This document shows, in pieces, positions 2,865-60,242 of a stretch of DNA of 64,000 bases. The notes beneath the pieces are model-generated. The model worked only from the letters and a program-made list of their open reading frames with translations. It did not search any database and was not told where the DNA came from. The position numbers and the translations under genes were made by a program. This DNA is from Branchiostoma floridae. Its lineage: Eukaryota; Chordata; Leptocardii; Amphioxiformes; Branchiostomatidae. Numbering within the stretch: the first letter of the stretch is position 1; the number at the start of each line of letters is the position of its first letter. The stretch covers positions 19,142,414 to 19,206,413 of the forward strand of contig NC_049979.1 in assembly GCF_000003815.2 (NCBI RefSeq), in the 5' to 3' direction.

Positions 2865-3599
2865 ACCTCAACAGCAGTGCAAACTAACAATGATATTTCT
2901 ATTGACATAAATGCTTCATTTTATGTTTTGTTGACTTCAACTGTTTGGAATCTAATTTGAAGAAAAGGTACACGTCACCACCTGCTGCCCCCTGTACTGT
3001 GTTGGACGCCCGTTTGAGGCACTTGACATGGTCACGTAAAAAAAAGATTAAAAAATTGCGGTGGGCTCAATCAGGCTGTCAAAGGCGTCCTCGTAATCCC
3101 CACGAGTTGTTCTATCTGCCTTGTGAATCTCAAGCGATGGACTTTTACGAGAAAGTATATATTTGATGTCAAAGTTGACCGATTTTCGACAGCTTTTTCC
3201 TATGGTTTCGCCATTGTCTTCAAGCCGAAATACGCACCGTATGGGGGTTTCGGGGTGTCCGCTTAGTGGGCGAGGTTCAACTGTTTCCGGGTCACGCTAT
3301 ACCGTTGCGGCAGTCACTCGCGACCTCACTCGGTAGTGTACACAAGTACTTTTGATGGTGCTGTCAGCGTTTTTACGAAGTAATATTGAAATGTCTTTGA
3401 AGTATAAGACAGCACTATGATCTGTAAGGTGTTATTCCAATAGGTTGCGTCGTGGGTAAAGTGAACTGTAGGTAACGTTACCCGACGAGGGCTTTTCACG
3501 GCATCTGACTGTTAACTGTTGAAGATATTAGATACATTGCTCGCGCCTGGCTGAGGGATGAACTAAGATTAGAACAGTATATAGCTAATTAATAGCGAA

Positions 3600-5300
3600 A
3601 AACGTGTTCAGAAGAGAAACTGTGCCAATTTGAATGACACAAAAAATAGCGCCGTAAGAATTGTAACGTTGTATAGCTAACTTGTAGCGGAAAACGTGTT
3701 CAGAAGACAAACTGTGTCAATTTGAATGACACATCTAAAGGACCGTTGTGCGCTGCATTAAGTGTATATAGCTAACAAATAGCGAAAAACGTGTTCAGAA
3801 GAGAAACTGTGTCCATTTGAATGACAGACTTACAGAACAGTAAGAACTATAACGTTATGTAGCTACAATTGTAATAGCGCAAAACGTGTTCAGAAGACAA
3901 ACTGTGTCAATTTGAATGACACACTTGCAGATAGCGCAATAAGAACTGTACATAGCTAACTCCTAGCGGAAAAAGCGTTCAGGAGACAAACTGTGTCGAT
4001 TTGAATGACACACTTACAGGTAGCGCAATAAGAACTGTATATAGCAAACTAATAGCGTAAAAAGTGTTCAGGAGACAAACTGTGTCAATTTGAATGACAC
4101 ACTTGCTGATAGCGCAATAAGAAATGTACATAGCTAACTCATAGCGAAGTGTAACGTGTTCAGGAGACAAACTGTGTCAATTTGAATGACACACTTGCAG
4201 ATAGCGCAATAAGAACTGTATATAGCAAACTAATAGCGTAAAAAGTGTTCAGGACACAAGCTGTGTCAATTTGAATGACACACTTGCAGATAGCGCAATA
4301 AGAACTGTATATAGCAACCTAATAGCGGAAAAAGTGTTCAGAAGACAAACTGTGTCAATTTGAATGACACACTTGCAGATAGCGCAATAAGAACTGTACA
4401 TAGCTAACTCATAGCGAAGTGTAGTGTTCAGAAGAGAAACTGTGTCAATTTGAATGACACACTTGCAGATAGTGCAATAAGAAATGTACATAGCTAACTC
4501 ATAGCGAAGTGTAGTGTTCAGAAGAGAAACTGTGTCAATTTGAATGACACACTTGCAGATAGTGCAATAAGAACTGTATATAGCAAACTAATAGCGGAAA
4601 AAGTGTTCAGGAGACAAACTGTGTCAATTTGAATGACACACTCACAGGCAGCGCAATAAGAAATGTACATAGCTAACTCGTAGCGAAGTGTAGTGTTCAG
4701 AAGAGAAACTGTGTCAATTTTAATGACACACTTACAGAATAGCGCCAAAAAACTGTATATAGCTAACTTAAAGCATAAAGTGAGTTCAGAAGACTACCTG
4801 TGTCGATTTGAATGACACACCTATAGAATAGGCACGGTTAGAACATGTATATATATTTAACTAACAGCGCAACGTGTTCAAGAGACAAACTGTGTCAATT
4901 TGAATGACACATTATAGAACAGTACTGTAAGAACTTTATATAGCAAACTAATATCGAAAAACGTGTTCAGGAGACAAGCTGTGTCAATTTGAATGACACA
5001 CTTACAGAATAGCGCCGTTAAAACAGTATATAACTAACTTAAAGCGAAAAGTGTATTCAGTAGACTACCTGTGTCAATTTGAATGACAGATTTATAGAAA
5101 AGTGCTGTAAGAACTGTATATAGCGGAAAACGTGTTCAGGGGACAAACTGTGTCAATTTGCATGACATACTCACATTATAGCGCCGTAAAAACAGTAACG
5201 TTACATAGCTAACCAATTTAAAAAAAAACGTGTTAAGGATACAAAATGTGTCTGTGAATGACACATTCATAGAACAGCGAGGTAAATTTATTTTGACCAA
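3600..5300 (+). repeat. Left array: about 19 units of a ~90-bp repeat
   Basis: Units recur every 89-95 bases (for example at 3713, 3808, 3903, 3992, 4081, 4173, 4262, 4351, 4441, 4531). Each carries the near-palindrome TGTGTCA-N7-TGACACA, then AGCGC(A/C)(A/G)TAAGAACTGTA, TATAGC(T/A)AAC and CGTGTTCAG(G/A)AGACAAAC. The open frames read through parts of the array arise because the unit is often a multiple of three long. They are not genes. Confidence 0.9.
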
Positions 5301-5369
5301 AGCTTGCTCTAACAAAAACTTTTTCAATCAGATGATCATACTATTTAATTATCGCTTTACTTTACTTGT

Positions 5370-8300
5370 GTGTCATATGAATTGACACAGTTGCCCTCCT
5401 AACGAAGTTTTCTGTTGTAAAATGGTTATATGCAGTTCTTACAGCGCTTTTCTTTAGGTGTGTCATACAAATTGACACAGTTTTGTGTCCTGAACACATT
5501 AGCCGTTAAGATTTAGTCATACATTTGTATACTATACGTTCGGCGCTATTCTACAAATGTGTCGAAACAAATCGACACAGCTGTGCTTTTGACTACGTTT
5601 TCAGCAATAAAGTTGTTAGGTACAGCCCAAAGTACACTTTTTACCAGTGTGTCATATAAATTGACACAAATTCTTTACTGTCAAACTTTTTCCGTGATCA
5701 ATTTTACACACGTTAAACAGCGCTTTTCTCATTGTGGGTGATATAAATTGACACAGTTGTCCCCCGGAAAAACCTTTTCCATTTTTAAGACACGGTTCAA
5801 ACATCGCTTACAAAGGTGTCAGACAAATTCACACAATTTCCCTCCTGAAAAAGTCGTCCGCCATCAAGACAATTTTACACTGATTTCACATCGTGTTTCA
5901 TAGTGTGTCATATGAAATAACAGTTGTCCTCCTGACAAGGTTTTCTGTCATTTGATACAGTTATCGTCCTGACCGTGAGGGTTTTCCGTTTTGTGAAATT
6001 TTAATAAGTTTTAAAAAACTTGTTAATTGACACAGTTGTCGTCCCGACCAAGTCTTCCATCAGTTTAATACTGTTTAATCATCGCACTAGTGTGCCATAC
6101 TATCAGTGACAGTTGTCCACCAAAGTTTCCGTCATGAGGCAGTTTTATACTGTTTACCACTCGGTTATTAATTGCAAAGCCGTCCTCCTGACAAAGTTTT
6201 CTGTTATAAACTATTGTGTCAATTAATGTGACAAACTAACAAACTGAATAGATATACCTAAATCGTATAATCATTCGATTCAAAAAGTTTTCGGCAGAGC
6301 GAGTTTTCCGTCATAAGATAGTTATTATGCGTTTCAAAAGTGTGTCATACGATTGACACAGTTTTCAGCTCAGACAGCGCAGTACTAGATTTGACAGTTT
6401 ACTTGAACAAGTTAGTATTTCAGTTACTTTAAACCCTACCATGGTCCAAACTCCAGTAATCAGTTGTTAATTGATATGAAATAACCGCATCTAAAGTCAT
6501 ATATACGAAGAAACGCCATTTAGTTCGTAAGAAGGGACCTTAGAACTTGTCTGACACACTTGCAGAAAAGCGCTGCCTGAACCGCGCTATTATGTAAGTG
6601 TGTCATTCATATTGACACAGTTTGACTTCTGAACACGCATTAATATTCCGCTTTAAGTTAGCTATATACAGTTCTTACTACGCCATTATATAAGTGTGTC
6701 ATTCAAATTGACACAGTTTGTCTCCTGAACACGTATTTTGCTATTAGTTAGATATATTCAGTTCTTACGGCGCTATTATGTAAGTGTGTCATTCAAATTG
6801 ACACAGTTTGACTCCTGAACACCCTTTTTCGCTTTTTGTTAGCTATATACAGTTCATTCAGCTTTGTTCTGCAAGTGTGTCATTCAAATTGGCACAGTTT
6901 GACACCTGAATACGTTTTCCGCGATTTCTTAGCTATATACAGGTCTTACATTGCTGTTCTATAAAAAAAAGTGTGTCATTCAAAGTGACACATTTTGTGT
7001 CCTGAACACGTTTCTCGCTATTATTGAGCTATACACAGTTCTTACGGCGCTATTATGTCAGTGTGTCATTCAAATTGACATAGTTTGTCTCCTGAACACG
7101 TTTACGCTATTAGTTAGCTATATACAGTTCTTACGGCACTATTATGTAAATGTGTCATTCAAATTGACACAGTTTGACTCCTGAACACGTTTTCCGCTAT
7201 TAGTTAGCTGTATACAGTTCTTTTAGCTTTGTTCTATAAGTGTGTCATTCAAATTGACACAGTTTGACATTTGAACACGCATTCCGCTTTAAGTTACCTA
7301 TATACAGTTCTTACAGCGCTATTCTATAATGCATTGTGTCATTCAAATTGACGCAGTTTGTCTCCTGAACACGTTTTTCGCTATTGGTTAGCTATATACA
7401 ATTCTTACGGCAACATTATGTAAGTGTGTCATTCAAATTGACACAGTTGGACTCCTGAACACGTTTTTCGCTATTAGTTAGCTATATACATTTCAGCTTT
7501 GTTCTATAAGTGTGTCATTCAAAGTGACACAGTTGGACTCCTGAACACGCATTGCACTTTAAGTTACCTATATACAGTTTTTTTACAGCGCTGTTCTATG
7601 AATGCATCATTCAAATTGACACAGTTTGTCTCCTGAACACGTTTTTCGCTATTAGTTAGCTGTATACAGTTCATTCAGCTTTATTCTATAAGTGTGTCAT
7701 TCAAATTGACACAGTTTGTCTCCTGAATACGTTTTCGCTATTAGTTTGCTATATACAGTTCTTTGGGCGCTGTCTACAAGTGTGTCATTCAAATTGACAC
7801 AGATTGACACTTGAACACGCATTCCGCTTCAAGTTAACTATATACAGTTCTTACAGCGCTATTCTATAATGCATTGTGTCATTCAAATTGGCACAGTTTG
7901 TCTCCTGAACATGTTTTTCGCTCCTAGTTAGCTATATACAGTTCTTACGGCACTATCATGTAAGTGTGTCATTCAAATTGACACAGTTTGACTCCTGAAC
8001 ACGTTTTCCGCTATTAGTTAGCTATATACAGTTCTTTTAGCTTTGTTCTATAAGTGTGTCATTCAAATTGACACAGTTTGACACCTGAATACGTTTTCCG
8101 CGATTACTTAATAGCTATATACAGGTCTAACATCGTTGTTCTATAAATGTGTCATTCAAAGTGACACATTTTGTCTCCTGAACACGTTTCTCGCTATTTG
8201 TTAGTTACATACAGTTCTTACGGCGCTATGATGTAAGTGCGCCATTCAAATTGACATAGTTTGTCTCCTAAACACGTTTATCGCTATTAGTTAAGCTACA

Positions 8301-8475
8301 TACAGTTCTTACGGCGCTTATATTATGTAAGTGTGTCATTCAAATTGACACAGTTTGTCTCCCCAAGGAGGTCTCCCGAACACGTTTTCCGCTATTAGTT
8401 CCCTGTATACACTTCTTACAGCACTGTTCTATAAATGTGTTATTCAAATTAACACAGTTTGTCTCCTGATGTCTA
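5370..8475 (-). repeat. Right array: inverted copies of the ~90-bp repeat, about 21 good units plus a degenerate inner part
   Basis: This is the reverse complement of the left array. Good copies run from about 6597 to 8475 (the core recurs near 6696, 6787, 6875, 6971, 7061, 7151, 7241 and so on). The inner part, 5370-6370, keeps the TGACACAGTT core and CTCCTGA words but is much more diverged. The outer units are more alike than the inner ones, as expected if exchange homogenises the array from one side. Confidence 0.88.
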
Positions 8476-9016
8476 CGAGAATGCCAGTTAATAGTTCGTT
8501 CGGATGGGACCTTACAACCGTTGCAGATTCGCAACGTGGGCCGAGACGATACGAACAAACACAAACTTAAAAAAACGTTCTGCAAGTTCAAACATACTTT
8601 CGCCAAGAGTCCCTTAACAAACCTAATTTAACAATATGCGTAAGCCTGACTTGAATCCTCCTCTACCGAACCAAGCGCAGACTGAGACCGTCAAGATACC
8701 TGGTGACCCGCGTTCAATGACCTCACTCGTACGACCCGGAAGTATATGATCGTAATCGGTTGCACGGAAACCCCCATGCAGTGCGAAATCGAGGCCGAAA
8801 ACAGGCATAAAGAGCCAGTTTGAAGGCTAACTTTGACTCTTCAAATCTCGTCCCGAAATAATATTTGAATCAAGACGAGTATTGTAGGCGATAGAACAAC
8901 TCGTGGGGATTACGTGGGCACCTTTGACAGCCTGATTTGGGCCACCGTGATTTTTTAATCTTTTTTTTACGCGACCATGTCAACTGCCTCAAACGGGCGT
9001 CCAACATACTGTATCA

Positions 9017-9346
9017 TGCTACCATGTAAGAAAGTTCAAAGTTCATGGGATTGAACATTAACTGTATGGGTAAATACAGGACCACTAAGGTGACAAAACC
9101 ACAAAATTTGATGTGCTTTTAGTTTTTCCCACAATAATTGACATTTATACAATGTAATTCCTGCATAGAAAATGTATTTCTGTTGAGTTTTTCTTGCAAC
9201 ATGTAAAATGTAAAATTTTGCTCCACCTTGTACCCCCTAGAAAATAATGGATCCATTCTGTTTAGATTTGCTAAACAAAGACGTGAGGGACTTTCCAGGT
9301 AACCCGGACATTGGATTGAAGACAACAGTCTGCGTTGTGAAAAAAA
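9017..9346. other. Presumed promoter/5' region of the membrane TPR-like gene
   Basis: AT-rich DNA between the fold-back element and the first recognised coding exon. I see no clear TATA box or further coding exon. An upstream untranslated exon cannot be excluded. Confidence 0.4.
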
Positions 9347-27000: not shown

Positions 27001-30000
27001 CTACATCCTAAAAGAGTGGGACAGGAAAGCTTTTAGACAACAAGGTTATGACCACTCTAGACCAGATCATCTGGAACACCCACCCATTTTTCAAGTGCAG
27101 GACGGGCGTCCTGTAAATGGCAGTCTCCAGCACGTGTCCGAGGTCTGTGTTGTTGATGGTGACCCCGCCCACCGTGGGGGTGGCCTTCTGTCCCTTCTCA
27201 CACTCCTGCAGGTACAGCAGTGCCATGTCCCCTGAGTGTTCGTACAGACTGATGATCTCTTCCTCTCGCTCAGCCTGCTTCATTTTGCTAAACGTTTTTA
27301 GTGGAACCTTCTCCAAGCACATCGCTACAGAAAAGGAAGAAGATCAATCTATAATGTAGCTGTTTGGACCAAATAAAAACAATAAATACAATGCAATTGG
27401 TCTGCGAAGGATGGAAGGAGAGAGTAATGTTCATCTGTTCAATTGGATGATGATGATGAATTTGTCCGCAAATTTGACTGCAATATTGCATTGCAATTCA
27501 AGTTGTAACTTTCTAAATAGCTGTACGGCAGGTCTTCTTGCTTGTATGCTAATTGAACATCTACAATGTGTGAATGCGGATCACCTTTAAGTGCGTAAGC
27601 CTCAGCGATCAGTCTGAGTATCCTGTTGCTCTGTATGTTTGTGGAGAGTTCCTCCAGCCGACCCTTACAGAAGCAGCCCAGAGCTTCCTCGTAGTTCCCT
27701 GTGGCATAGTTCAGCTTTCCCTGCAGTAGTAAGATTTCCTCCGCCCACTTTTGCTGGGAAGGAGAACAACAAAAAATCGAAAGTTAACATTTGCAGGCAA
27801 ATGCAAGTTATCTAACTCCCATCCGTCCCAAAGGTAGCATTATGAGGCCTTTCCCTGCAGTAATGTAGTTCATCCCTAGTTTGTAGAACTGTTGCTTTAT
27901 GTACCGTCTCAAGAGACGACAAGAGCCGAAGAAGAAATCTACTTTGGAAATCACACTGGACATATTTTGTCAAAGGTTTAAAGGTTGTTTGGAGTTCAAT
28001 ATTCCATTTCCTCATAGCGCATCCATCACAATTGTTGTAGAGCAAACAGATTGGAGTATGACGGATGAATAATTGATCATTCCACATCTGCCAACTCTGT
28101 GTGATAATCAGTTCAATCACTACCAGGTCAGAGATTTCAAGGGAGGAAAATCATGTCCTAAAATAACACCACTCCTGGACACTAGGAGCGTCCCAATTTC
28201 CGTCTGAATGCACACAGACCAATCTTGCAAACACTGTTAGAAAATCAATACTGCATACTGGAGAGAAGCATGGGGAAGAGAGGAAATGGAAGACATGAGT
28301 AGAATACATCTGTTCCTTGAGACAGTTAGGTTAGGTATTTCATCTCACATAACAGTAGTGCAGGAAAGGTACATTATCTAAAAACCCACAGTTTGAGATG
28401 CAATCGTACCATAATAAGTTACAAGGCTACTGAGTGATTTGATGTACAAGTATTAGGATATATTTGGTTCAGTGCACAGATGTGGATATAGTTTCACTGT
28501 TATTGACATTGAATGTGCTAGTGGCCATTAATCACAAGGTGTTAGCTAATGTGTGACAATTAACATGCATGTAATCAACCTGCATGTGTACAAAAAAGTC
28601 AATGAAAAGAGACATATCTAAACTGATAACCCTCTATCTATTAGTATTACAGTTAAAGTTTTGCCCACTACTAGCACCTCCCTAACAGTAACACCTAGCA
28701 TTTCTGTATCTACTTGTTTGAAAACATAGCTCTTCAAGGATACACCAATTTGATTTGTTTGTTTTCAATCGAAAAAAACTTTGCTAGATTGCAAGGCAAA
28801 GGTATAAACAGACTCTGAAATGAAAGTCTGTAGTACAGACAGTTACTGATCCTGAGTAGTAGGGACAGGGAGTGAATGCACATGTAGTCAGAGTTAAGTT
28901 CTACAAACACTTCTCTACTTTTATATTGTAATCTTGTTGAACTTTTCATTTAAACTATCTGAAAACCAAGAAAATAATTGGCATGGCTTAAACAGTAGCA
29001 GAGATACTCTACCTTGTGTTCACCCTTGAGTGCATCGTTGAAGTGCCTCCTGGCCTCTGTTAAGGCTCGGCTGGCCTTGGCTATGTTCTCCTCCTTGGGA
29101 GGAACTTCTTGAAGGTGAAGTTCAAGCTTCGTTTCCCCGAGAACTAACTGGACCAGGGATTCTAAGGAACAGATTGCAATTTATAGGTGGTATATACATG
29201 AATTGTGTGTGTTTGATGAGGTGTAAAGGTGTCTGTAAATGGACACAAGGCTATACTGAAAAAAATCATTCATTGCACCTTTTAACGTTTTATGTTTTGT
29301 CAATACTAATGAAGGACATTTCCAGAGGGGCGGGATCCTAGGGATGTACCAGTCTAGGTTCTGGCCACTATGTCTGGTATTCAGAGAGACAGCAGCTTTA
29401 AGTTCAACAGTCATGCTGTCACATTTCCAAAATGTTGCCCTGCTGGGCAGTAATACATTTGTAGGCTTAAAACAAAACTTGCATGGGCCCTATGGGAATC
29501 CTTACAGCTCCTAGGCTACTCTTCAGTTCAGGTGATCCCCCAGTTGATTTTAATCCATACTTACGATGAAGGCTTCATCTACAGTGCGGTATGGAAGATA
29601 ATTTTTAATAATTCAACCAAAAGTAAATGTTCTACCTTACTAAAGCAAGTGTATCCGTTAACAGTTGTTGGTACAGGATGGTTAAACTCCAAAAGGTGAT
29701 CCCAACATCTACATTTGTAAATAAAATCATTATCTCAAAAGCTTTTCATACTCATCTCTGTATCCACTCTCCTTCATCTAAGAGAATTGAACATTTGTAT
29801 CAACCGTTTCTGACGCACAGATAGCTTAATGTTCTAATCCAAGCCTTGACTTGAGAGTAAATTGGGCACTTTGGGACACGAGATGCCACGGCCCAGCCAT
29901 TAGGCCTGAAGCAATAGACGAATTGGGATACTTAATGAAATCCCTCGACGATGGAAAAGTGTCAGCTAGAAGACCGTGAAATGCGTAACTGACACCTTAA

Positions 30001-42000: not shown

Positions 42001-45000
42001 GCAAACATGGCAAATATGGTTGGATGGGATACTGTTTAACTCTTCTTGTAGTCGGAAGCTCCCAAAAGAAACAAAATGTTCACAAAACATCTATGCTGTA
42101 GAATGGACCATGAAAGTTAGATCAAAAATATGTAACACTGAATTACAAAACTTTTACAATTAGTTAATATTTTCTCTCCTTTATAAACACTTCAGCTATA
42201 ATCAGACTACAGTGCATTCAATCAAGATTCTACATAAAGCAACAGGGTTTCTAACATGAAAAGATGCCACCTAGGCCATACCTCTGTTTCCACCTCAAGT
42301 ATGAGGTCCCCTGCTGAAGGGAGGTCCTTCCACCCCATGACCTCCACAGGTGTGCTGGGCGGGGCTTCCCTCACCTGCTGACCTGTCTCACCAAACATGG
42401 CTCGCACCTGTCAAAGGTGGGAGGTGAAGATGTTCAGTACATCTAAAAAAAAATAACACCATGGGATGTCTGCTGGACTGTCTACCTGGATATTGCTTGG
42501 GTGAATATGGACGGTGGCTAAAATCACAACCCACCCACCCTTTGCCTATTCACAAATACAAGAGGGACCCTGCCATACAGTTTAAAGGCTGTTTATTTCC
42601 TTTTGGACAGGACGTGATTCCCTGCCAATGCCAGGTTATTTTGGAGCTTGAGTGCACCCCCCCCCCACAGGTGACACTTACAAAATATTATGATCACATA
42701 CATGTAATTGCACATGGAAATGTAACACCCCAAGAGGCTGACCCTACCTTAGCCCAGGCTGTACCAGCCACCAGATAGCAGCCCCTCCGCAAGGTTCCTC
42801 TCTGGATCACAACAGTCGCTACGGACCTGCAAATATCATTATCTTAGATCTAAGATGAAATATGGCTTGATTTTATATGGGGAAGATAATTCATATTGAG
42901 AGCTAACCATCAGAATTTCCTATGAATATATCACCAGACAAATGGATAGAGTCGATTCCGAGACACCATGAGGGTTTTTAGACAATAATTGTAATAAGTT
43001 GGAATTATTTTGAATAGAAGAATATCTAAGCCCAAACAGTTATAATTTTTTCAAAAAAATTGATATGGAATTTTGAATCTATTTGAATTCTTTTGAATTC
43101 TTTGGAAACATTTTGAAAGAGATCACACGAAAATCTCTTTATTTACAATAATTTTCAAACATCTGCAGGATTCTTTCACTTTTAAAAATATTTACAAAAA
43201 ATGGTAAACCTTGCCAAATGGTAGAATTAATTTATTGCCCCATAAAAGTTAGCCCCTTTTGTCTGCCTGGTATATTTTTAGATTTCACTGGTGGGCACTG
43301 GTGGGTCCTTTGTGGTAGGCCATTGACATGACACCCAACCATACTTTGCGAGGATGTGTGAATTGCTTTCTTCCTAGCCCACTGACCCAATATTACAAAA
43401 AATGGTAGAAAATGGTAAATAACGGCAAAATGCTGTTACCATTGTTTACAAATTCTTAGAAGTATTCTGTTCCACATCGTGAATATTTCAAAGGTTTTAC
43501 AGACCGAGTAAAATATTAAGAAAGTTCAAATAGCATTAGAAATACTTCAAAAGTATAAAATCTCCTGGACATATAATTGAAAACAATTGAAAACGTATGT
43601 AAATGATGACAATAGCAACCCTCGCGGTGACTTGGAATCGGCTCTACTTCTTGATTTTGTAATGTTATTTGTAACAATCAATGTTACAATTACAATTACA
43701 ATGATGCTAATTCTTCACAAACTTGCTCACTCAATCACTGGTTTTATATCCAGAAAATAAGACAAAAACTCCCATACAATCCATTCCCCCTGTATAGGTA
43801 CTTGAGAAACATTATATATGTTTTCCCTGATGGTTATTTTAAATGATTTTTCCAATAGTTAACATACTGTTTTTGCTGGTGTGTTTTTCTTCTTTCTTCT
43901 TCATCTTGTATCAGGAAACAAACTTAGTCATTTTTCTACTACTAGTTAACTTACCCTCTGCCCTTGTCAGTTCGAGATTCGATGACCGTAGCCTCTACAG
44001 GGCCTTTGTTGTCACCTTTGACCTCCATGACCTCTGCTTGGGTCACTATGGCCTCAGCCAGTTCCGTCAAGCCTTGCCCCTGGACATGCGATAAATCAAC
44101 AAGTATGGTGTAAACATGAAGTATGAAAATCAACTCTTGATGCAGGGCCTCCTTTGTTTCAAGTGGCAGACTTTTATAAATGTAGGGTACCTGCAGGAAT
44201 GAACAGAGTTATATGTAAAAAGCATATCTTAATGTTTCAGGAATGCTATGAAATGATAATCACGACATTGGTATAATGAAAAAACAAAAAACACTTTTCT
44301 ATCTTCTTTTGTTATGAGATGTATGGATAAAAGGTATAACGAGGGCTTACCTTAAGAGCAGAAATCTTGACCGATTGTATGTCACCACCAAACTCCTCCA
44401 GCTCCATCCCATGGCTCAGCAACTCTCTCATCACAACCTCCTGTTGAACAGTCAACAGCAACATCATCTTACAAATGTACACATGAATGATGCACACTGA
44501 CAATAGGTAGATCTGAACTAAGTGGCTAAAAATGCTTCATGCTCTGACACCCCCATTATGTAATCAGGGCTCGAAATTCATTTTTGGGAATAGGTGCACT
44601 GGTGCACCCAAACTAGAAAATTGGGTGCACCAAAATATTTTTGGGTGCACCACATAAAATAAAGTAGAATATCAGAATAACATAATTGCAAACCTACTAA
44701 ATTAGTAATTTGAACAGTCCGGGAGCTCTTCAGAAATCGGAAGTACTATAACAGTCATTTTATTGTCTTTCTAACACACAGATGTCAAGAATATGGTGTT
44801 TACTTAGTATACTGACATCTTAACATGCATATGCCTATCAAAATAGTGCACCCACAGAAAAAAAAATTGGGTGCACGGCTCCAATTTTGGGTGCATCTGG
44901 GTGCACAAAACCCCAGTATTTCAAGCCCTGATCTGCTTCTCTCTTGCGCATCTGTTTCTCTCTTGCACACCGGTTTCTCCCTTGCACACCTGTTTCTCAA

Positions 45001-48000
45001 TCGCACACCAGTTTCTGTCTAGCGCACCTGCTTCTCTTTTGCACATCTGTTTCTCTTTTGTGCACCTGTTTCTCTCTTGTACACCTGTTTCTCTCTTGCG
45101 CACCTGTTCCTCTTTCGTACACTTGTTTCTCTCTTGCGCATCTGTTTCTCTCTTGTGCACCTGTTCCTCTCTTGCACATCTGTTTCTCTCTTGTGCATCT
45201 GTTTCTCTCTTGCGCTTCTGTTTCTCTTTTGCGCATCTGTTGCTCTCTTGGGCACCTGTTTCTCTCTTCCGCATCTGTTTCTCTCTTGCACATCTGTTTC
45301 GCTCTTGCGCATCTGTTTCTCTCTTGCGCATCTGTTTCTATTATGCGCATCTGTTTCTCTCTTGCGCATTTGTTTTTCTCTTGTGCATCTATTTCTATTT
45401 TGCGCATCTGTTTCTCTCTTGCGCACCTGTTTTTCTTTTGCGCATCTGTTTCTCTCTTGCGCATCTGTTCCTCTCTTGCGCATCTGTTTCTCTTTTGCGC
45501 ATCTGTTTCTCTCTTGCGCACCTGTTCCTCTCTTGCGCATCTGTTTCTCTCTTGCGCATCTGTTTCTCTTTTGCGCATCTGTTTCTCTCTTGTGCATCTA
45601 TTTCTCTCTTGCGCACCTGTTTCTCTTTTGCGCACCTGTTTCTCTCTTGCGCACCTTTTTCTTTTGCGCACCTGTTTCTCTCTTGCGCATCTGTTTCTCT
45701 CTTGCGCATCTGTTTCTCTCTTGCGCACCTGACTCTTTCATGCACCTGTTTCTCTTTTGCGCACCTGTTTCTGTCTAGCACACCTCCTTCTCTTTCGCGC
45801 ACCTGTTTCTCTCTTGTGCACCTGCTTCTCCCTTGTGCACCTGCTTCTCTCTTGCGCACCAGTTTCTCTCTCGCGCACCTATTTCTCTGTCGTGCACCTG
45901 TTTCTGTCGCGCACCTGTTTCTGTCGAGCATCTGCAGGGCCGAAATTTATTTTTAGGAATAGGTGCACCCAAACTAGAAAATTTTACTTACACATAAAAT
46001 AAAGAATATCAGAATAACATAACTGCAAACCTACTTATTATAATTAGTAATTTGAACGGAGCTCTTCAGAAATCGGAAAATTGGACAGTCATTTTATTAT
46101 CTATCTAACACATGGATGTCAAGAATATGGTGTTTACTTAGTATACTGACATCTTAACATACATAAGCCTATCAAAATATTTGGGTGCACCCTGTGCACC
46201 CACAGAAAAAAAATTGGGTGCACAGCTCCTATTTTGGGTGCACCTTGGTGCACAAAACCCCAGTATTTCGAGCCCTGGTAATTGATAAGTACAAATTACA
46301 TCAATTTCAGAGTGGTGTTTATGTTGACAGTAACATGAAGGTGTGACGGGTCGTTCAGTGTAATATATCATAACCAGCTGCTGCCGAGCTACCAGCCGGC
46401 GAAGCTGGTGTGTTACTCCAAAGGGTGGTTATACCGGCTATATAAATACAGATGTAACACTTTTCAACAGTGTATGGTGGTGCAGAGCTCTTAGTCTCAT
46501 AATGATAATGACAACATGTTAACGGAGGTATAATATTTCTGTAACTTACAGGGTCAGCATTCTTCTTGTCACACTTGTTGATGGCTACAATGATAGGAAC
46601 TGTGGAAAAACATAAAAACAAAGTGGTTGTAATCCATCCGGTAGAAATCTTCCGGAGCGGACTAAAGAAATACGGCTGGACTCCAGTCTATATTGTACAT
46701 GTACAAGGGATGAAAGGCTACCTTAATGACACATTATCAGTGTAGGATTTAATTTTGAAGTACATAATATTCAAGATGTACACAACACAAACCCATTTTT
46801 ACCGTTGGCAGCCTTGGCATGTTTTATTGACTCCAGAGTTTGTTCCATCACTCCGTCGTCAGCAGCAACCACCAGTACCACGATGTCTGTCACAAGAGCG
46901 CCGCGTGCTCTGAGCGCTGAGAACGCAGCGTGGCCGGGGGTGTCCAGGAATGTGATTCTCTCGCCCGTGGGAAGCTCAACTGTAAGAATAAACAAAATAT
47001 CTGTGTCACCTTTCACAGGGGCTATGGACACTGCAGGGATACGGGCACAAATTCAACAGGGTATCTGCTTTCATGTTATGCCAAAGATTATCATGAAAGA
47101 TTTGTCCATTTACAGAAATCCAGTCAAATATCAGGACAGAAATTTGGACAGAAATCCGAACAGAAATCCGGTCTGAAATCTGGACAGAAATCCGGATAGA
47201 GTTTCGGTCAGAAATCTGGACAGACCGCCGCTATGACTTTAAACAACAATTTGCATAAGAGCCCAACATACTTATAGAGAAGTGAAAGTAAAAAAGTGAA
47301 CCAGTGTACTTGGCTATAGAAACAAGTCATAGCAAAGCTGCATTGCATTATCAGCTATCAGAAAGCATTACACTTCGTCTCAAGTGTTATGCTTTGAGTT
47401 TGAACAAAAAGAGAGCATACAGATAGAGGGAGAGAGATAGCCATCTAGACAGAAAAAGCAAGAGAGGGAGGGAGTTATTTTTACAATTCTCAGTGCCCCA
47501 CCTGAAAAGGCCCCTATATGTTGTGTGATGCCTCCAGCCTCTCCAGCTGCTATGTGAGACTTTCTCAGGCTGTCCAGTAGGGTGGTCTTGCCGTGGTCAA
47601 CGTGCCCCATGATGGTCACCACGGGGGGACGTCTGACCAGTGCTGAGGGGTCCGGTGGAGGTCTGCAGAGGGGCATTTGTAAAGAAAAGCCATAGGGGTC
47701 AATATGAAACAAGCAAACTAAGCTTCAGTACTTATCTTTTTGCAATTAAGACCACACTGATTTCTTTGTTCTCAGATACACTGCTTTACTCTTCCTGAAA
47801 AAAATGTGTACAATCCAGGTATTTGAATCAACGTGAAAATGCTGGACTTAACCGTTGAAAAAGTCTCCTAATCACAGTTTATTCACTTCTCAACACTTTT
47901 TAAGTTGAAAATTAATTGTTTGCAATGTTAAGAAGCCTGGTGTGTTGACTTTGTGACTTTTGGACCATTGGATTCACAGCCAATCAGCTCTCTCATCCAT

Positions 48001-55132: not shown

Positions 55133-56470
55133 TTATTCAAAAGCGAATCAACATTTTCAAATATTTTGTTGGGCTAAAGGGTTCAGGTACAGGTTAATAT
55201 GTGTGGGTCTCTGATCTTTGCACAGGTCGGGCAAATGAGATCCACACGAATTCAAGGGACGTCGGTGGCTTTCACTGAAAGACTAGCTGTATCACTGAAG
55301 GGAAGGACATCCGTGTGCAAATTGCTACAAGGGGATCGAGGCTGAGAGCCATATGCAAAACCCGAAACAACGTCGACCGAAGGAGCAAGGCCATGAGAGG
55401 GAAATGCCAGACCGGCAGCAGAGCCGCGGGCGGCCAACCGATTGCGCTGCTTTTGAGGGAAAAACTGAGTGCAGTTAGAGAATTCATGGACTGACGTACA
55501 CGTACTATCTGCGTTATTTGACTTATACGAATACGTGTTGTCTAGTCTATTAGGTCATATTTAGTAATGTAAAAAATAATTCAATTCACCTAGACAACGA
55601 TGGATATACGAATGGTGGACATCCTAACCAAACGTATATGAAAACTTTATTGACACGACAAAAGTACAGCGACTTTCGTGAGGATTATAACAACTATTTA
55701 CAGTACAGCTAAGCAGACGTATATGCATATTTACAGATATGAATAAGTCAACATGCTGTTTCTAGCATTCCATTTACATAATTCGAACATTGCCTTCAAA
55801 TGTCTTGAGTTACAAACGAACTTTTACCAATCTAACGTTTGCGGGAGTTTCTTAACGATAAAAATACACGTCCGTGCAGCCGTTTACTTTTGGGTTGTAG
55901 CAGCCGTTTACTTTTGGGCTGTAGCAGCCTTTCACTCCGTCACTTACAAGAAGATACAACGCAACGTTTGCTAGATGTAATTAGTCTGTAGTATTGTACT
56001 ATGATTGTTATTCTTAAACAGTTATTCGTTTGATGACGTGAACTACAACAGACCGAGATGTACTTAGTCTAGTAATATGAGCGATATTGAATGATGTGTG
56101 TAGCTGTCTGTCAGGTAAGGCAGGATACAAAGACGAGAGATTTCAACGGCAGTTCAGGAGAGCAGACATTTGTCTAGTACTGAGACAGAATGTGAATACA
56201 AGAGATTTCTAAGGTAAGAGAGTTCAGTTCAGGAGAGGCAATAGAGAACTTCAGTTAAGGCCAAAGAGAGATAGCATTATTATGAAGTCTATTATATTGT
56301 TAAAAGTCTTCTGTACCCAGCGTGCGGAAATTCTTGTCTCTTCATTGTCATTTCTTTATCCTTCATGTGCTGATCTTCGAATTTCAGTTGGCAACTAAAG
56401 GAACCTGTATATATTTGTTACATGTCTAAGCCTCTGTCGTTGGGGATCTCGTCGTAACTTTCTTAACTTT
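55133..56470. other. Intergenic, no gene recognised
   Basis: Contains a 24-bp duplication (GCCGTTTACTTTTGGG, near 55879-55927). A GC-richer stretch at 55218-55490 has short open frames on both strands without recognised similarity. Confidence 0.45.
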
Positions 56471-56970
56471 ACAACACACTAACCCTTCATGCTTGTGGCT
56501 CTTGCCGTCCTGCCGTTTCCGACAAGAGTACAAGATCATATTTCCTAACCATCCCATCCAATCCCTTCATACAACACACTAACCCTTCATGCTTGTGTCT
56601 CTTGCCGTCCTGCCGCTTCCGACAAGAGTACAAGATCCTATTTCCTAACCATCTCATCCAATCCCTTCATACAACACACTAACCCTTCATGCTTGTGTCT
56701 CTTGCCGTCCTGCCGCTTCCGACAAGAGTACAAGATCATATTTCCTAACCATCCCATCCAATCCCTTCATACAACACACTAACCCTTCGTGCTTGTGGTC
56801 TTGCCGTCCTGCCGTTTCCGACAAGACCACAAGATCACGTTTCCTAACCATCCAATTCCTTCATACAACACACTAAGCCTTCATGCTTGTGGCTCTTGCC
56901 GTCCTGTCGTTTCCGATGAGACCACAAGATCACGTTTCCTAGTCATCTCATAACTTCATACAACACACCA
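56471..56970. repeat. Tandem array of a 100-bp unit, five copies plus a part
   Basis: Units begin ACAACACACTAACCCTTC at 56471, 56571, 56671 and 56771, then at 56865 and 56959 with 94-base spacing. Each contains TTGCCGTCCTGCCG and TTCCGACAAGA. The last copies are more diverged. Confidence 0.92.
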
Positions 56971-57397: not shown

Positions 57398-60242
57398 ATG
57401 GCAGCGGGAGAGTTGGGAGGTAGAGCCGAGCTGGAGACCGAGCTGGAAAAACTCGGCATTCAAACGGAAACTATCGAACATCCGGAGGTAAGGACGATTT
57501 TTATATCATAGGGTGACAAAAGGAACGATTGTAGTGGTTGGGGTGACGAAATCATGGCGGGAAAGATTGATAAAAGGGTACGACAGCTGGGCGGTGCCGA
57601 ATTTCCATCCTGTTAGGGAGTGTGTCATCTGGAGCTGGTTATGTGTATGATTTGTTTACTCAGCTTGAAAATGTAGGTCAACCTGCATGCCTTAGCTTTT
57701 GTTAGCTCTGGGTGTCGTTGAACTTTCTGAAAATAGGTCGTCAGCGACAAATGTGGTACTAAAACGTATGTCTATGAAAAGGCTGAGCTGAAGATTTTTT
57801 TTACAATAAGTAACGGGAGGGGGCCATACTTCGACAGGGGTCCAAAGTTCGACAGGTTTTAAAAATCATTGTTGCGGAGAAATGCATAGAGGCCTGCACA
57901 TGAGAAGTACACTAGCTGTAGACTAAACCTTGTTGTAAATAACTACAAAGGCGGGGTATGTGTCGAAATTAGCAAGTCCCACAGATAACGATTGAAAAAC
58001 TTGCACAAGTTTGACGCCTTCCGTGCAAGTTGACGAGCGAACGTATCGAGACCATGGCCCGGGAAACTCTTGAATTATTCTTCGCAAAATACGACATGTG
58101 AAAAAATATCACCACACATAGAAATGATGTTTATTAGCCTTCCGAAAAATAATATCTGTGTTCTGTTCTGCCTTTAACTGGCTTGGATAAACGGAGCTAA
58201 AATGATGCCACAATGTTCAGCCAGTCGGGGCCCCGCCATTTTACTATCACGCACGCAGGCGGGCGAGCGATGCTCAACACGTTGAACTCAGTCAACCCGT
58301 CCGTAGAGCGACAAACATTCAAGAAAAATCGATCTCTACCGACTAAAAAATCCTGTAGCCGTTGCTGCTGCCAAAAGACAGGATGAAATGGCAATCAAGG
58401 AAGCCGAAAAGCGAAAATGCCGTCACAGTCCAACGTAACACTGCGCTGCCGTTTTGCGGCAAGTTGGTCTCACCGTGAGAGGTAAACGTTTTAACACACC
58501 GTATTTGAATAAGTCGCGTAATACAAAATATGACCCATATTTGGTACAAAAAAAATATAATGAAGACTTTTAGTGCTATTCTATTTGCATAAGTTGTTTA
58601 AAAATGCACGGCGATGGTCTGGTTGTTACTATGTCGGAGTTTGGACCCCTTTTTTGTGTTGGAACGTTCTGCTAGGACGCAAGCCGAAAACCTGCCGTAA
58701 GTTTCGTGCGCTGTCAAAGTACAGTGCGGAACGCTACTGTTAAATGAAATATATATCTGTACAGCTTCAATAACAGTTATATGGATGCATACAAGATCTT
58801 AACTTGTTTTTGATGAGTTCACTGTAAAATGTACATTGACAAAAGCCATGCGCATCCACTTAGAACGGGTGTCGAAGTATGGCCCCCTCCCGTTAATAAT
58901 CTAACGTTAGATTCTTTTGCACTAACGGGTTATGTTATGGATTTTTTTAACGGTATTGATACTGAGGAGGATGTTCCTGTCATAAGGGCTTCTTCATGCA
59001 CTATTGACAGGGATGGTTTGGAACCAATCAGAAACCAAGGAATGGCACCAATGATACTGATAGCTTACCACGATGATCCTGACGATGATCTTGTGAATAA
59101 CAACTTAATAACATCACATGATCTTGATCTTAACAATAACTTGTATCAACATTCCCAATTATAATCAACTGTTGAATGGATGTAACATTATATGGATTCC
59201 ATACTAATCACTGCATTTCTAGACTGTCAGACTTTTTCTATCAATAACACTTCTAGTGCACTATTGATCATGTTAACAGCCATTTGGAAATGCAGACATT
59301 TAAAAAAATGTCTTTATGTTGTTTACATTGTTTCAGGTATTAACAGTAGATGTGATGGTAAAGTATTACAAATGCATCACATGTATCAGGTGCACACACA
59401 TTAATTGTCCATTTCCCCCAGGTGTTCACAGTGGAGGAGATGATGAAGTATGTGTCACATGCACCAGGTGCTCACTCCAAGAACTTGTTCCTCAGAGACA
59501 AGAAGAAAAAGAACCTCTGGGTTTTGACTATTCTTCACAATAGACAGGTCAGTAATATAACTTATGTGGTGTAAAGTGTTACTCATCCTTATTTATGCAA
59601 TGTTGGCTCAGCTGTTCTGGGAAAGTAACACAACTGTATTTTTGGGACATTTTATGTCTCTTATGGCACTTTTCTGCACAGACAGTATAGTAGGTTTGAA
59701 CCTTTTAACTCATTTCTATATTTAGTTATTTATGTTTTTGTTCAATGGAAAAGACAGAACAGATAATTGTCTTTTTACAACTTTTTTCTTGCAAAACTAA
59801 ACTAGCATTTCTTTTTTTTACATGTATGAGAACTGAAAGAAATGCATATACATTGGGAGTAAAACAATACATTTAAAAGAGATAGATTACAGTATAAGAT
59901 GTCAATGTCATATTTTTGTGCTACATGCAGGTAAATCTAGGCTGGTTAGCCAAACAACTCGGTGCGGGATCTGGCGGCGTTCGCTTCGCTGATGAGTCCA
60001 TCATGCTGGAGAAACTGGGCGTCGGGCAAGGCTGCGTGACCCCTCTCGCGCTCTTCAATGACAAGAAGGGCGAGATCAAGTTCCTCCTGGATGCAGACAT
60101 CGCGGAGGGCAGTCACGAGAAGATTTTCTGCCACCCGATGACGAACGCTGCTTCCATGGGGATGTCTGTTCAGGACTTCCTCAAGTTTGTCAAGGCAACA
60201 GGACATGAACCTAAACTAATACAATTTGAACCACTAGTATGA
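57398..60242 (+). CDS. PRORSD1: PrdX deacylase domain protein (YbaK/ProXp-type aminoacyl-tRNA deacylase), three exons, 175 aa
   Basis: Stand-alone relatives of the bacterial ProRS editing domain hydrolyse wrongly charged tRNA-Pro (typically Ala-tRNA-Pro). Exons 57398-57487, 59422-59547 and 59931-60242 all join in phase 0. The single YbaK domain covers nearly the whole protein: a leading helix (LETELEKLGIQTETIEHPE), then KNLFLRDKKKKNLWVL (50-65) with the conserved Lys in the family position, the GCVTPLAL strand (106-113) and CHPMTNAAS (139-147). The length fits the vertebrate family. The start ATG sits in an AAGATGGCAGCG context. Intron 1 has taken up a 1.1-kb DNA transposon. AATAAA at 60442-60447 is a likely polyadenylation signal. 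Precise substrate specificity is not shown by sequence alone. Confidence 0.95.
57811..58895. mobile_element. Non-autonomous DNA transposon, 1085 bp, in PRORSD1 intron 1
   Basis: Perfect 26-bp terminal inverted repeats begin TAACGGGAGGGGGCCATACT (57811-57836 and inverted at 58870-58895). Next to them, GGGGTCCAAA(G/C)T words recur inverted at 57837 and near 58634-58650. No transposase seen. The target duplication is not clear. Confidence 0.85.
58896..59421. other. PRORSD1 intron 1, remainder
   Basis: AT-rich. An open frame starting inside the transposon runs to 59164 with an Asp/Asn-rich end. It has no similarity or splice support, so I do not call it a gene. Confidence 0.5.

Follow-up and report, generated by a model that had tools for sequence, protein, structure and literature searches.

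A 64-kb stretch of Branchiostoma floridae DNA (the window, by which the whole stretch analysed is meant) contains a 6,007-bp structure at positions 3000-9006, in which inverted ends enclose opposed arrays of one short repeat. This arrangement raises the question of whether it is a mobile element and, if so, what directs it to its targets. A sequence-only reading had taken it for a mobile fold-back element, and this interpretation was borne out by the recurrence of the same ends at other loci. The 6-kb element is a mobile family with dozens of recent copies in the genome.

Layout of the element in the window

The element starts with TGTTGGACGCC and finishes with GGCGTCCAACA, so that its termini read TGTTGG...CCAACA. 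Repeat units were called by a profile HMM at E <= 0.01. The parts are as follows.

2995..2999, no strand: target-site duplication, left copy, TACTG (read directly and by a suffix/prefix test)
3000..3121, + strand: left terminal inverted repeat, TGTTGGACGCC... (91% to the right end)
3122..3570, + strand: left arm, 449 bp (matched at at least 34 genome places)
3571..5279, + strand: left array, 19 units of ~89 bp, each with the palindromic core TGTGTCAATTTGAATGACACA (profile HMM)
5280..5360, no strand: orientation switch, 81 bp (profile HMM; present again in other copies)
5361..6365, - strand: decayed reverse units, 7 at E <= 0.01 (profile HMM)
6366..6581, no strand: middle spacer, 216 bp (in 20 of the 21 copies read)
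6582..8469, - strand: right array, 21 good units the opposite way, one of them partial (profile HMM)
8471..8885, - strand: right arm, 415 bp (at least 31 genome places, 29 full-length and 2 partial)
8886..9006, - strand: right terminal inverted repeat, ...GGCGTCCAACA (91% to the left end)
9007..9011, no strand: target-site duplication, right copy, TACTG (read directly and by a suffix/prefix test)
9018..9029, - strand: target landmark, YY1-like motif TTACATGGTAGC, a weak match (ATGG starts 19 bp outside the right end)

When the left end was aligned with the right end, 111 of 122 columns were identical (91%, E 2e-45). Inverted ends of ~125 bp had been placed at 2999-3122 and 8888-9012; such ends do exist, but their borders were off by 1-6 bases (122 bp, 3000-3121 and 8886-9006). 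Past these 122 bp the two arms showed a weak likeness that was above chance, with a best local score of 84 compared with a mean of 40 (s.d. 6.6, highest 58) in 200 base shuffles. TACTG flanks the element on both sides as a perfect 5-bp target duplication, which was absent from the earlier account. A small palindrome containing ATGG, TGACATGGTCA, lies within the element's own left end at 3024-3034.

About 19 units had been counted in one direction, and the profile HMM gave the same number on the + strand between 3571 and 5279. The opposed array was likewise found, but the earlier figure of over 30 units was slightly high, as the reverse strand carries 28 in total (21 good and 7 decayed), or 30 if two units below the threshold (E 0.19 and 1.3) are counted. 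Outside the element, no unit was detected within the 64 kb at E <= 0.01 (best 0.018). The stretch of decayed reverse units was 96-99% alike between copies, among the comparisons listed.

The sole stop-to-stop frame of more than 100 codons inside the window element has 112 codons and lies in the left array. Among frames of at least 130 codons in the 21 copies read (many of these frames being N runs in gaps), none looked like a transposase by eye. A Pfam scan at E <= 0.1 of nine frames, five from the window element and four from copies L038, L040, L043 and L050, gave two weak sub-cutoff matches, neither of them a transposase. Hence, the expectation that the element has no protein of its own was upheld. 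An autonomous copy with a transposase between the arms, suggested earlier as something to look for, did not appear among the 21 copies read, where an intron-split or short-exon transposase could escape frame reading.

The element had also been said to part two tandem paralogues. This received some support, as the flanking frames share 30% identity over 137 columns (E 1e-13). Other host-gene exons in the window encode a TTC7 N-terminal domain (27011-27783), an EF-Tu-type GTPase domain that is initiation factor 2-like by eye (46774-47724) and an aminoacyl-tRNA editing domain (59898-60239). Further repeats in the window comprise a perfect 64-bp direct duplication of 1.9 copies just left of the element (2736-2855), ~5 copies of a 100-bp tandem repeat at 92% (56470-56941), and ~52 copies of a 19-bp tandem repeat (44933-45922) with long open frames in several phases, which is probably a minisatellite. 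The 'Mirage' minisatellites of amphioxus genes were considered and set aside as another thing, being tandem copies of exon-intron boundaries according to the available text (PMC3087553).

Dispersed copies, target duplications and arrays

The whole assembly (513,431,437 bases, 431 contigs) was searched for the two arms. Because three right-arm places had no listed left arm, at least 37 places in all, whole or partial, carry the element; these counts are lower bounds since 40 candidates were scored per search. The places are distributed over contigs C1 to C17 as well as smaller contigs; their flanks are unlike and their ends exact, and left terminal inverted repeats of other copies matched the window's left end at 91-99%. 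Two of the places are on the unplaced contig C341 and may represent an alternative haplotype.

The window copy was read together with 20 others, the latter in stretches no longer than 10 kb. Within the sequence covered for each, the order of parts was common to all 21: the left arm and units in both orientations were present in every copy and the spacer in 20/21, and the right arm lay beyond the stretch read in two (L033, L036), was cut in L043, split in L038 and mostly lost in L040. Both-ended elements were 4.6 to 9.7 kb long, and some of them were interrupted by N gaps or by insertions of other repeats. The inserts in L038, L042, L043 and L050 resemble other repeats. From the last forward to the first reverse unit, the gap was 81-88 bp in 18/21 copies (82 in the window) and 29, 102 and 117 bp in the remaining three. 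The recurrence of this gap rules out an assembly error at the orientation switch, which is therefore genuine.

Both-ended copies are bounded by short target duplications. An exact 4-bp duplication was found in 12 of 18 such copies and an exact 5-bp one in two, while four had none; target duplications had been sought as a sign of mobility, and 14/18 copies thus provided one. When left ends were paired with the right ends of other copies as a control, 4 bp agreed in 2/306 combinations and 5 bp in 0/306. Exact duplications of 6, 7 or 8 bp were found in 0/18 copies, and the exact-match test, carried up to 12 bp, gave nothing longer than 5 bp. The duplicated bases vary between copies (GAGC, TGAC, GTAA, TTGG and others).

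Mean pairwise differences between copies were 1.4% for the left arm (21 copies), 1.45% for the middle spacer (20 copies) and 2.1% for the right arm (16 copies). In the available part of one report, heterozygosity in sequenced amphioxus species is 3.2-4.2% (PMC12500494). Compared with this range, differences of 1.4-2.1% in arms and spacer indicate a recent spread of the copies, and some insertions should still be polymorphic.

The number of near-full units per copy ranged from 9 to 59 in the left array and from 9 to 34 in the right array, gaps and cut stretches included. Across 1117 near-full units, the mean difference was 0.153 within the same array of the same copy, 0.152 when the same array was compared across copies and 0.185 between units of opposite arrays. 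As units are no closer within their own array than across copies, the arrays were inherited with the element rather than built at each site. The strictly nearest relative was in the same array of another copy for 446/491 right-array and 351/626 left-array units, and in the unit's own array for 3 and 53 units, respectively, most others being tied; this count is biased towards other copies because twenty of them were compared. The arrays move along with the element, lengthening or shortening as units are gained or lost.

The 21-bp core TGTGTCAATTTGAATGACACA shows 94-100% conservation at each site (1101 near-full units, 21 copies) and forms the longest well-kept run of the unit, with the qualification that the profile used for picking units includes the core. 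Judging from this pattern, the palindromic core is a putative protein-binding site, most likely that of the transposase.

A partial left-arm match of 85% at C4:91734-91864 (L052) turned out to be the left end of a second family. Family 2 has the terminus TGTTGACCGCC and a 105-bp unit, and follows the same plan as family 1. By eye, its unit borders read GTGCGTCATG/CCATGACACAC, recalling the family-1 core, though the unit is otherwise unlike that of family 1. The genome search located family 2 at about 20 places, most at 93-99%, with at least 15 facing-end pairs among the matches listed, their ends ~2 to 15 kb apart. Two of its left ends on different contigs, L059 (C13) and L066 (C10), have an identical 50-bp flank, so both lie in a repeat or were duplicated together. 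At the place corresponding to the family-1 palindrome TGACATGGTCA, family 2 has GACATCGTC.

A third family (GAGGCATAAGACATGGTCACG) occurs at many places among the matches listed, mostly without a facing partner. Its copy L051 (G000:C7:25074900-25078900) contains at ~1605-1984 a ~360-bp piece that is 84-86% like the element's right end. No second end was encountered in one family-3 copy read over 11.6 kb. Since the ~360-bp piece stands alone, another repeat may be carrying family 3 as a fragment.

Fixed spacing from a YY1-like motif in two families

ATGG, reading toward the element, starts exactly 19 bp outside it at 16 of the 46 family-1 ends for which 200 bp or more of flanking sequence was available. 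In these flanks every other ATGG distance from 4 to 199 was seen at most once. The motif was at 19 in 14 of the 18 both-ended copies, never on both sides of a copy (left 5, right 9), and in two further copies known by the left end alone. As for the four both-ended copies without it, C12:4552248 has ATGG at 20, C13:16485801 has a truncated right end, and C2:27209033 and C6:24893249 lack the motif.

Tallied base by base, the 16 sites read C(9) A(12) A(11) N ATGG C(13) G(7) G(9) C(10), which is close to CAAnATGGCGGC, the YY1 site in its longer form. For lancelet YY1, the motif is given as CGCCATNTT / GCCATCTTG, i.e. AANATGGCG / CAAGATGGC, in the available text of the source (PMC7481187). The window's own copy keeps the 19-bp spacing, but its motif is a weak YY1 match.

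The same spacing was observed in family 2, where ATGG stands at 19 in 7/20 left ends and at another distance within 80 bp in only one. Two of the left-end misses have one and the same flank. The family-2 copy C3:19821958/19825067 has ATGG at 19 at both of its ends. With the two families pooled, ATGG stands at 19 in 23/66 ends, where the per-position background is 0.0034 (binomial P 4.5e-40). The surrounding context agreed at 4.35/7 positions on-site versus 1.75/7 at 526 other ATGG of the same flanks (P 8e-12), a P value that is optimistic because part of the consensus had been noticed in these very sites; the spacing counts are independent of the consensus.

The genome was also scanned with the pattern ATGG, 3-30 free bases, then TGTTGRMCGCC. 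This gave 95 matches, 42 of them at spacing 19 (15 free bases), and the remaining 53 were scattered over 22 of the 27 other spacings with at most 6 each; the reversed pattern gave 32. The tally includes three matches from one end and two from another, and the 42 are a count of matches, not a share of all genomic ends with the end pattern TGTTGRMCGCCNNNNNGAGGCA. Near the listed ends of both families, 34 matches were at 19 and six at 7, 10, 12, 20, 25 and 31.

The 42 fall at listed family-1 places (23), at family-2 places (11) and in neither list (8). Two of these last, C18:2190485 and C349:5012, probably represent the far ends of family-2 elements, as each has a family-2 left end within 7 kb; C4:21886438 adjoins a family-2 fragment. 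The five ends belonging to neither family (C1:10805920, C2:28865671, C4:4140571, C10:17373328 and C188:17149) may represent further families, an autonomous copy or chance.

As the element lies mostly 19 bases from a YY1-like motif, its target choice seems to rely on a fixed landmark. The two families further suggest that the repeat unit is replaceable while a TGAC-type palindromic core and the targeting rule persist.

Proposed mechanism and comparison with known systems

We consider it highly probable that the element represents a non-autonomous family of fold-back DNA transposons, served by a transposase from elsewhere and inserted at a fixed distance from a CAAnATGGCGGC-like site. A transposase encoded elsewhere in the genome would bind the TGTTG...CAACA ends, perhaps with the assistance of the palindromic cores repeated in both arrays. 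Either YY1 or the enzyme's own motif-reading DNA-binding domain would hold it at the YY1-like site, and it would cut the target with a stagger of 4 bp (sometimes 5), some 15 to 19 bp away from where ATGG starts. The element would then be joined to this cut in such a way that ATGG begins 19 bp from its end.

Whereas the spacing was observed directly, the guide of insertion may be either YY1 or the transposase's own domain. YY1 is a plausible guide, because in B. belcheri it is reportedly abundant at all stages of life and, according to the available text, binds a different transposon, ProtoRAG, at its ends (PMC7481187). The full proposal, namely a chordate fold-back clade whose transposase is tethered to YY1 and inserts at one fixed base beside YY1 sites as the DNA-transposon counterpart of Tf1-Sap1, stands in our judgement at an even chance. 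Should YY1 be the guide, each copy would mark a YY1 site that was in use in the germ line, and the targeting rule is testable in cells by a mini-element together with YY1 depletion.

Fold-back elements are already known. Within the accessible portions of the open-licence literature, we found no DNA transposon at a single-base distance from such a site, no publication on YY1-guided insertion of a DNA transposon and none on amphioxus fold-back elements. A 2013 discussion of DNA-transposon targeting, in its available text, names host-protein targeting only for the retrotransposons TRE5-A and Tf1 (PMC3706591).

It is quite possible, if somewhat doubtful, that the transposase reads CAAnATGGCGGC by its own DNA-binding domain (e.g. 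YY1-like zinc fingers) and needs no host protein. The single-base spacing (42/95 at 19) fits an enzyme that itself reads the motif, and for Dada transposons the accessible part of their description favours direct target recognition (PMC3706591). However, the motif belongs to a host factor and is bound by lancelet YY1 (PMC7481187), and Tf1 demonstrates that a host factor can also give base-level spacing (PMC5741268), both as stated in the available text.

A derivation of the families from a Ginger-type (integrase-related) transposon, accompanied by a change of target rule, is unlikely, though still worth considering. According to the available text (PMC2836005), Ginger ends are TGTNR, duplications are 4 bp in Ginger1 and metazoan Ginger2 and 5 bp in TDD-4 and TDD-5, the inverted ends are long, and both Ginger1 and Ginger2 occur in B. 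floridae. The ends studied here agree with this, since TGTTG was found at the family-1 ends, except for one CGTTG and one truncated end (both in L038), and at 20 family-2 left ends. On the other hand, Ginger1 targets CCGG or CCGT and Ginger2 prefers RTATAY, while the duplications here were varied and followed neither target, and no tandem-array arms are described in that text (PMC2836005).

Much less probable is that the motif is the start-codon context of genes, AAAATGGCGGC, with insertions gathering at gene starts through open chromatin. The sequence AAAATGGC is indeed a start-codon context, and 11/16 motif sites stay open over six codons past the ATG, where chance gives ~12 to 13/16. An in-frame stop within six codons excludes the other five sites, and only those. 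Moreover, open chromatin cannot set a distance to one base. GC in the 200 bp beside 29 left ends did not differ significantly from that 1.1-1.5 kb away (P 0.42), nor did the CpG ratio (0.81 vs 0.63, P 0.18, a comparison of low power), so GC or CpG context was rejected as a target feature for these 29 left flanks.

A local inverted satellite or segmental duplication is scarcely credible: other tandem arrays are present in the window and the common 50-bp flank of L059/L066 suggests that a few copies may be duplicated with their flanks, but for family 1 the dispersed places, unlike flanks, exact ends and 4-5 bp duplications refute it.

Among known systems, the features of the fold-back class are all present here, i.e. 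inverted arms with opposed tandem repeats in 21/21 copies read and mobility with target duplication in 14/18 both-ended copies. Drosophila FB and sea urchin TU have inverted arms made of tandem repeats, and FB makes a 9-bp duplication and has a Mutator-type kinship. The element resembles FB/TU in its tandem-repeat arms, as had been proposed earlier; because its duplication is 4-5 bp, compared with 9 bp in FB, the likeness is one of plan and not of kinship. The 8-10 bp duplication of FB/Mutator-like elements was not found in the 18 both-ended copies, nor was the 7-8 bp duplication of Galileo and the P superfamily. Membership in FB/MULE, Galileo/P or Ginger therefore fails on the features tested.

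Tetris of Drosophila virilis is similar in plan, with an outer flanking domain, a variable tandem array in each inverted arm, a non-coding middle and a unit number that differs between alleles. It differs in its 8-10 bp duplications, 220-bp unit and three structurally complete copies, and its available description mentions no spacing from a motif (PMC4079207).

With respect to targeting, fixed spacing from a YY1-like motif, as expected of YY1-guided insertion, was found in both families. Dada elements, as far as the accessible text describes them, are also DNA transposons with strict target choice, but they use one site inside multicopy RNA genes and make 6-7 bp duplications (PMC3706591); here the motif is outside the insertion and the duplicated bases vary. 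ProtoRAG is likewise a lancelet transposon tied to YY1, yet in the available text YY1 binds inside its own ends, which carry CACTATG (PMC7481187), whereas here the YY1-like site is in the target. Like the present element, Tf1 of fission yeast integrates at fixed bases, -9 and +19 from the Sap1 motif, although the available text describes an LTR retrotransposon with another host factor, whose distances are counted from a 21-bp motif (PMC5741268).
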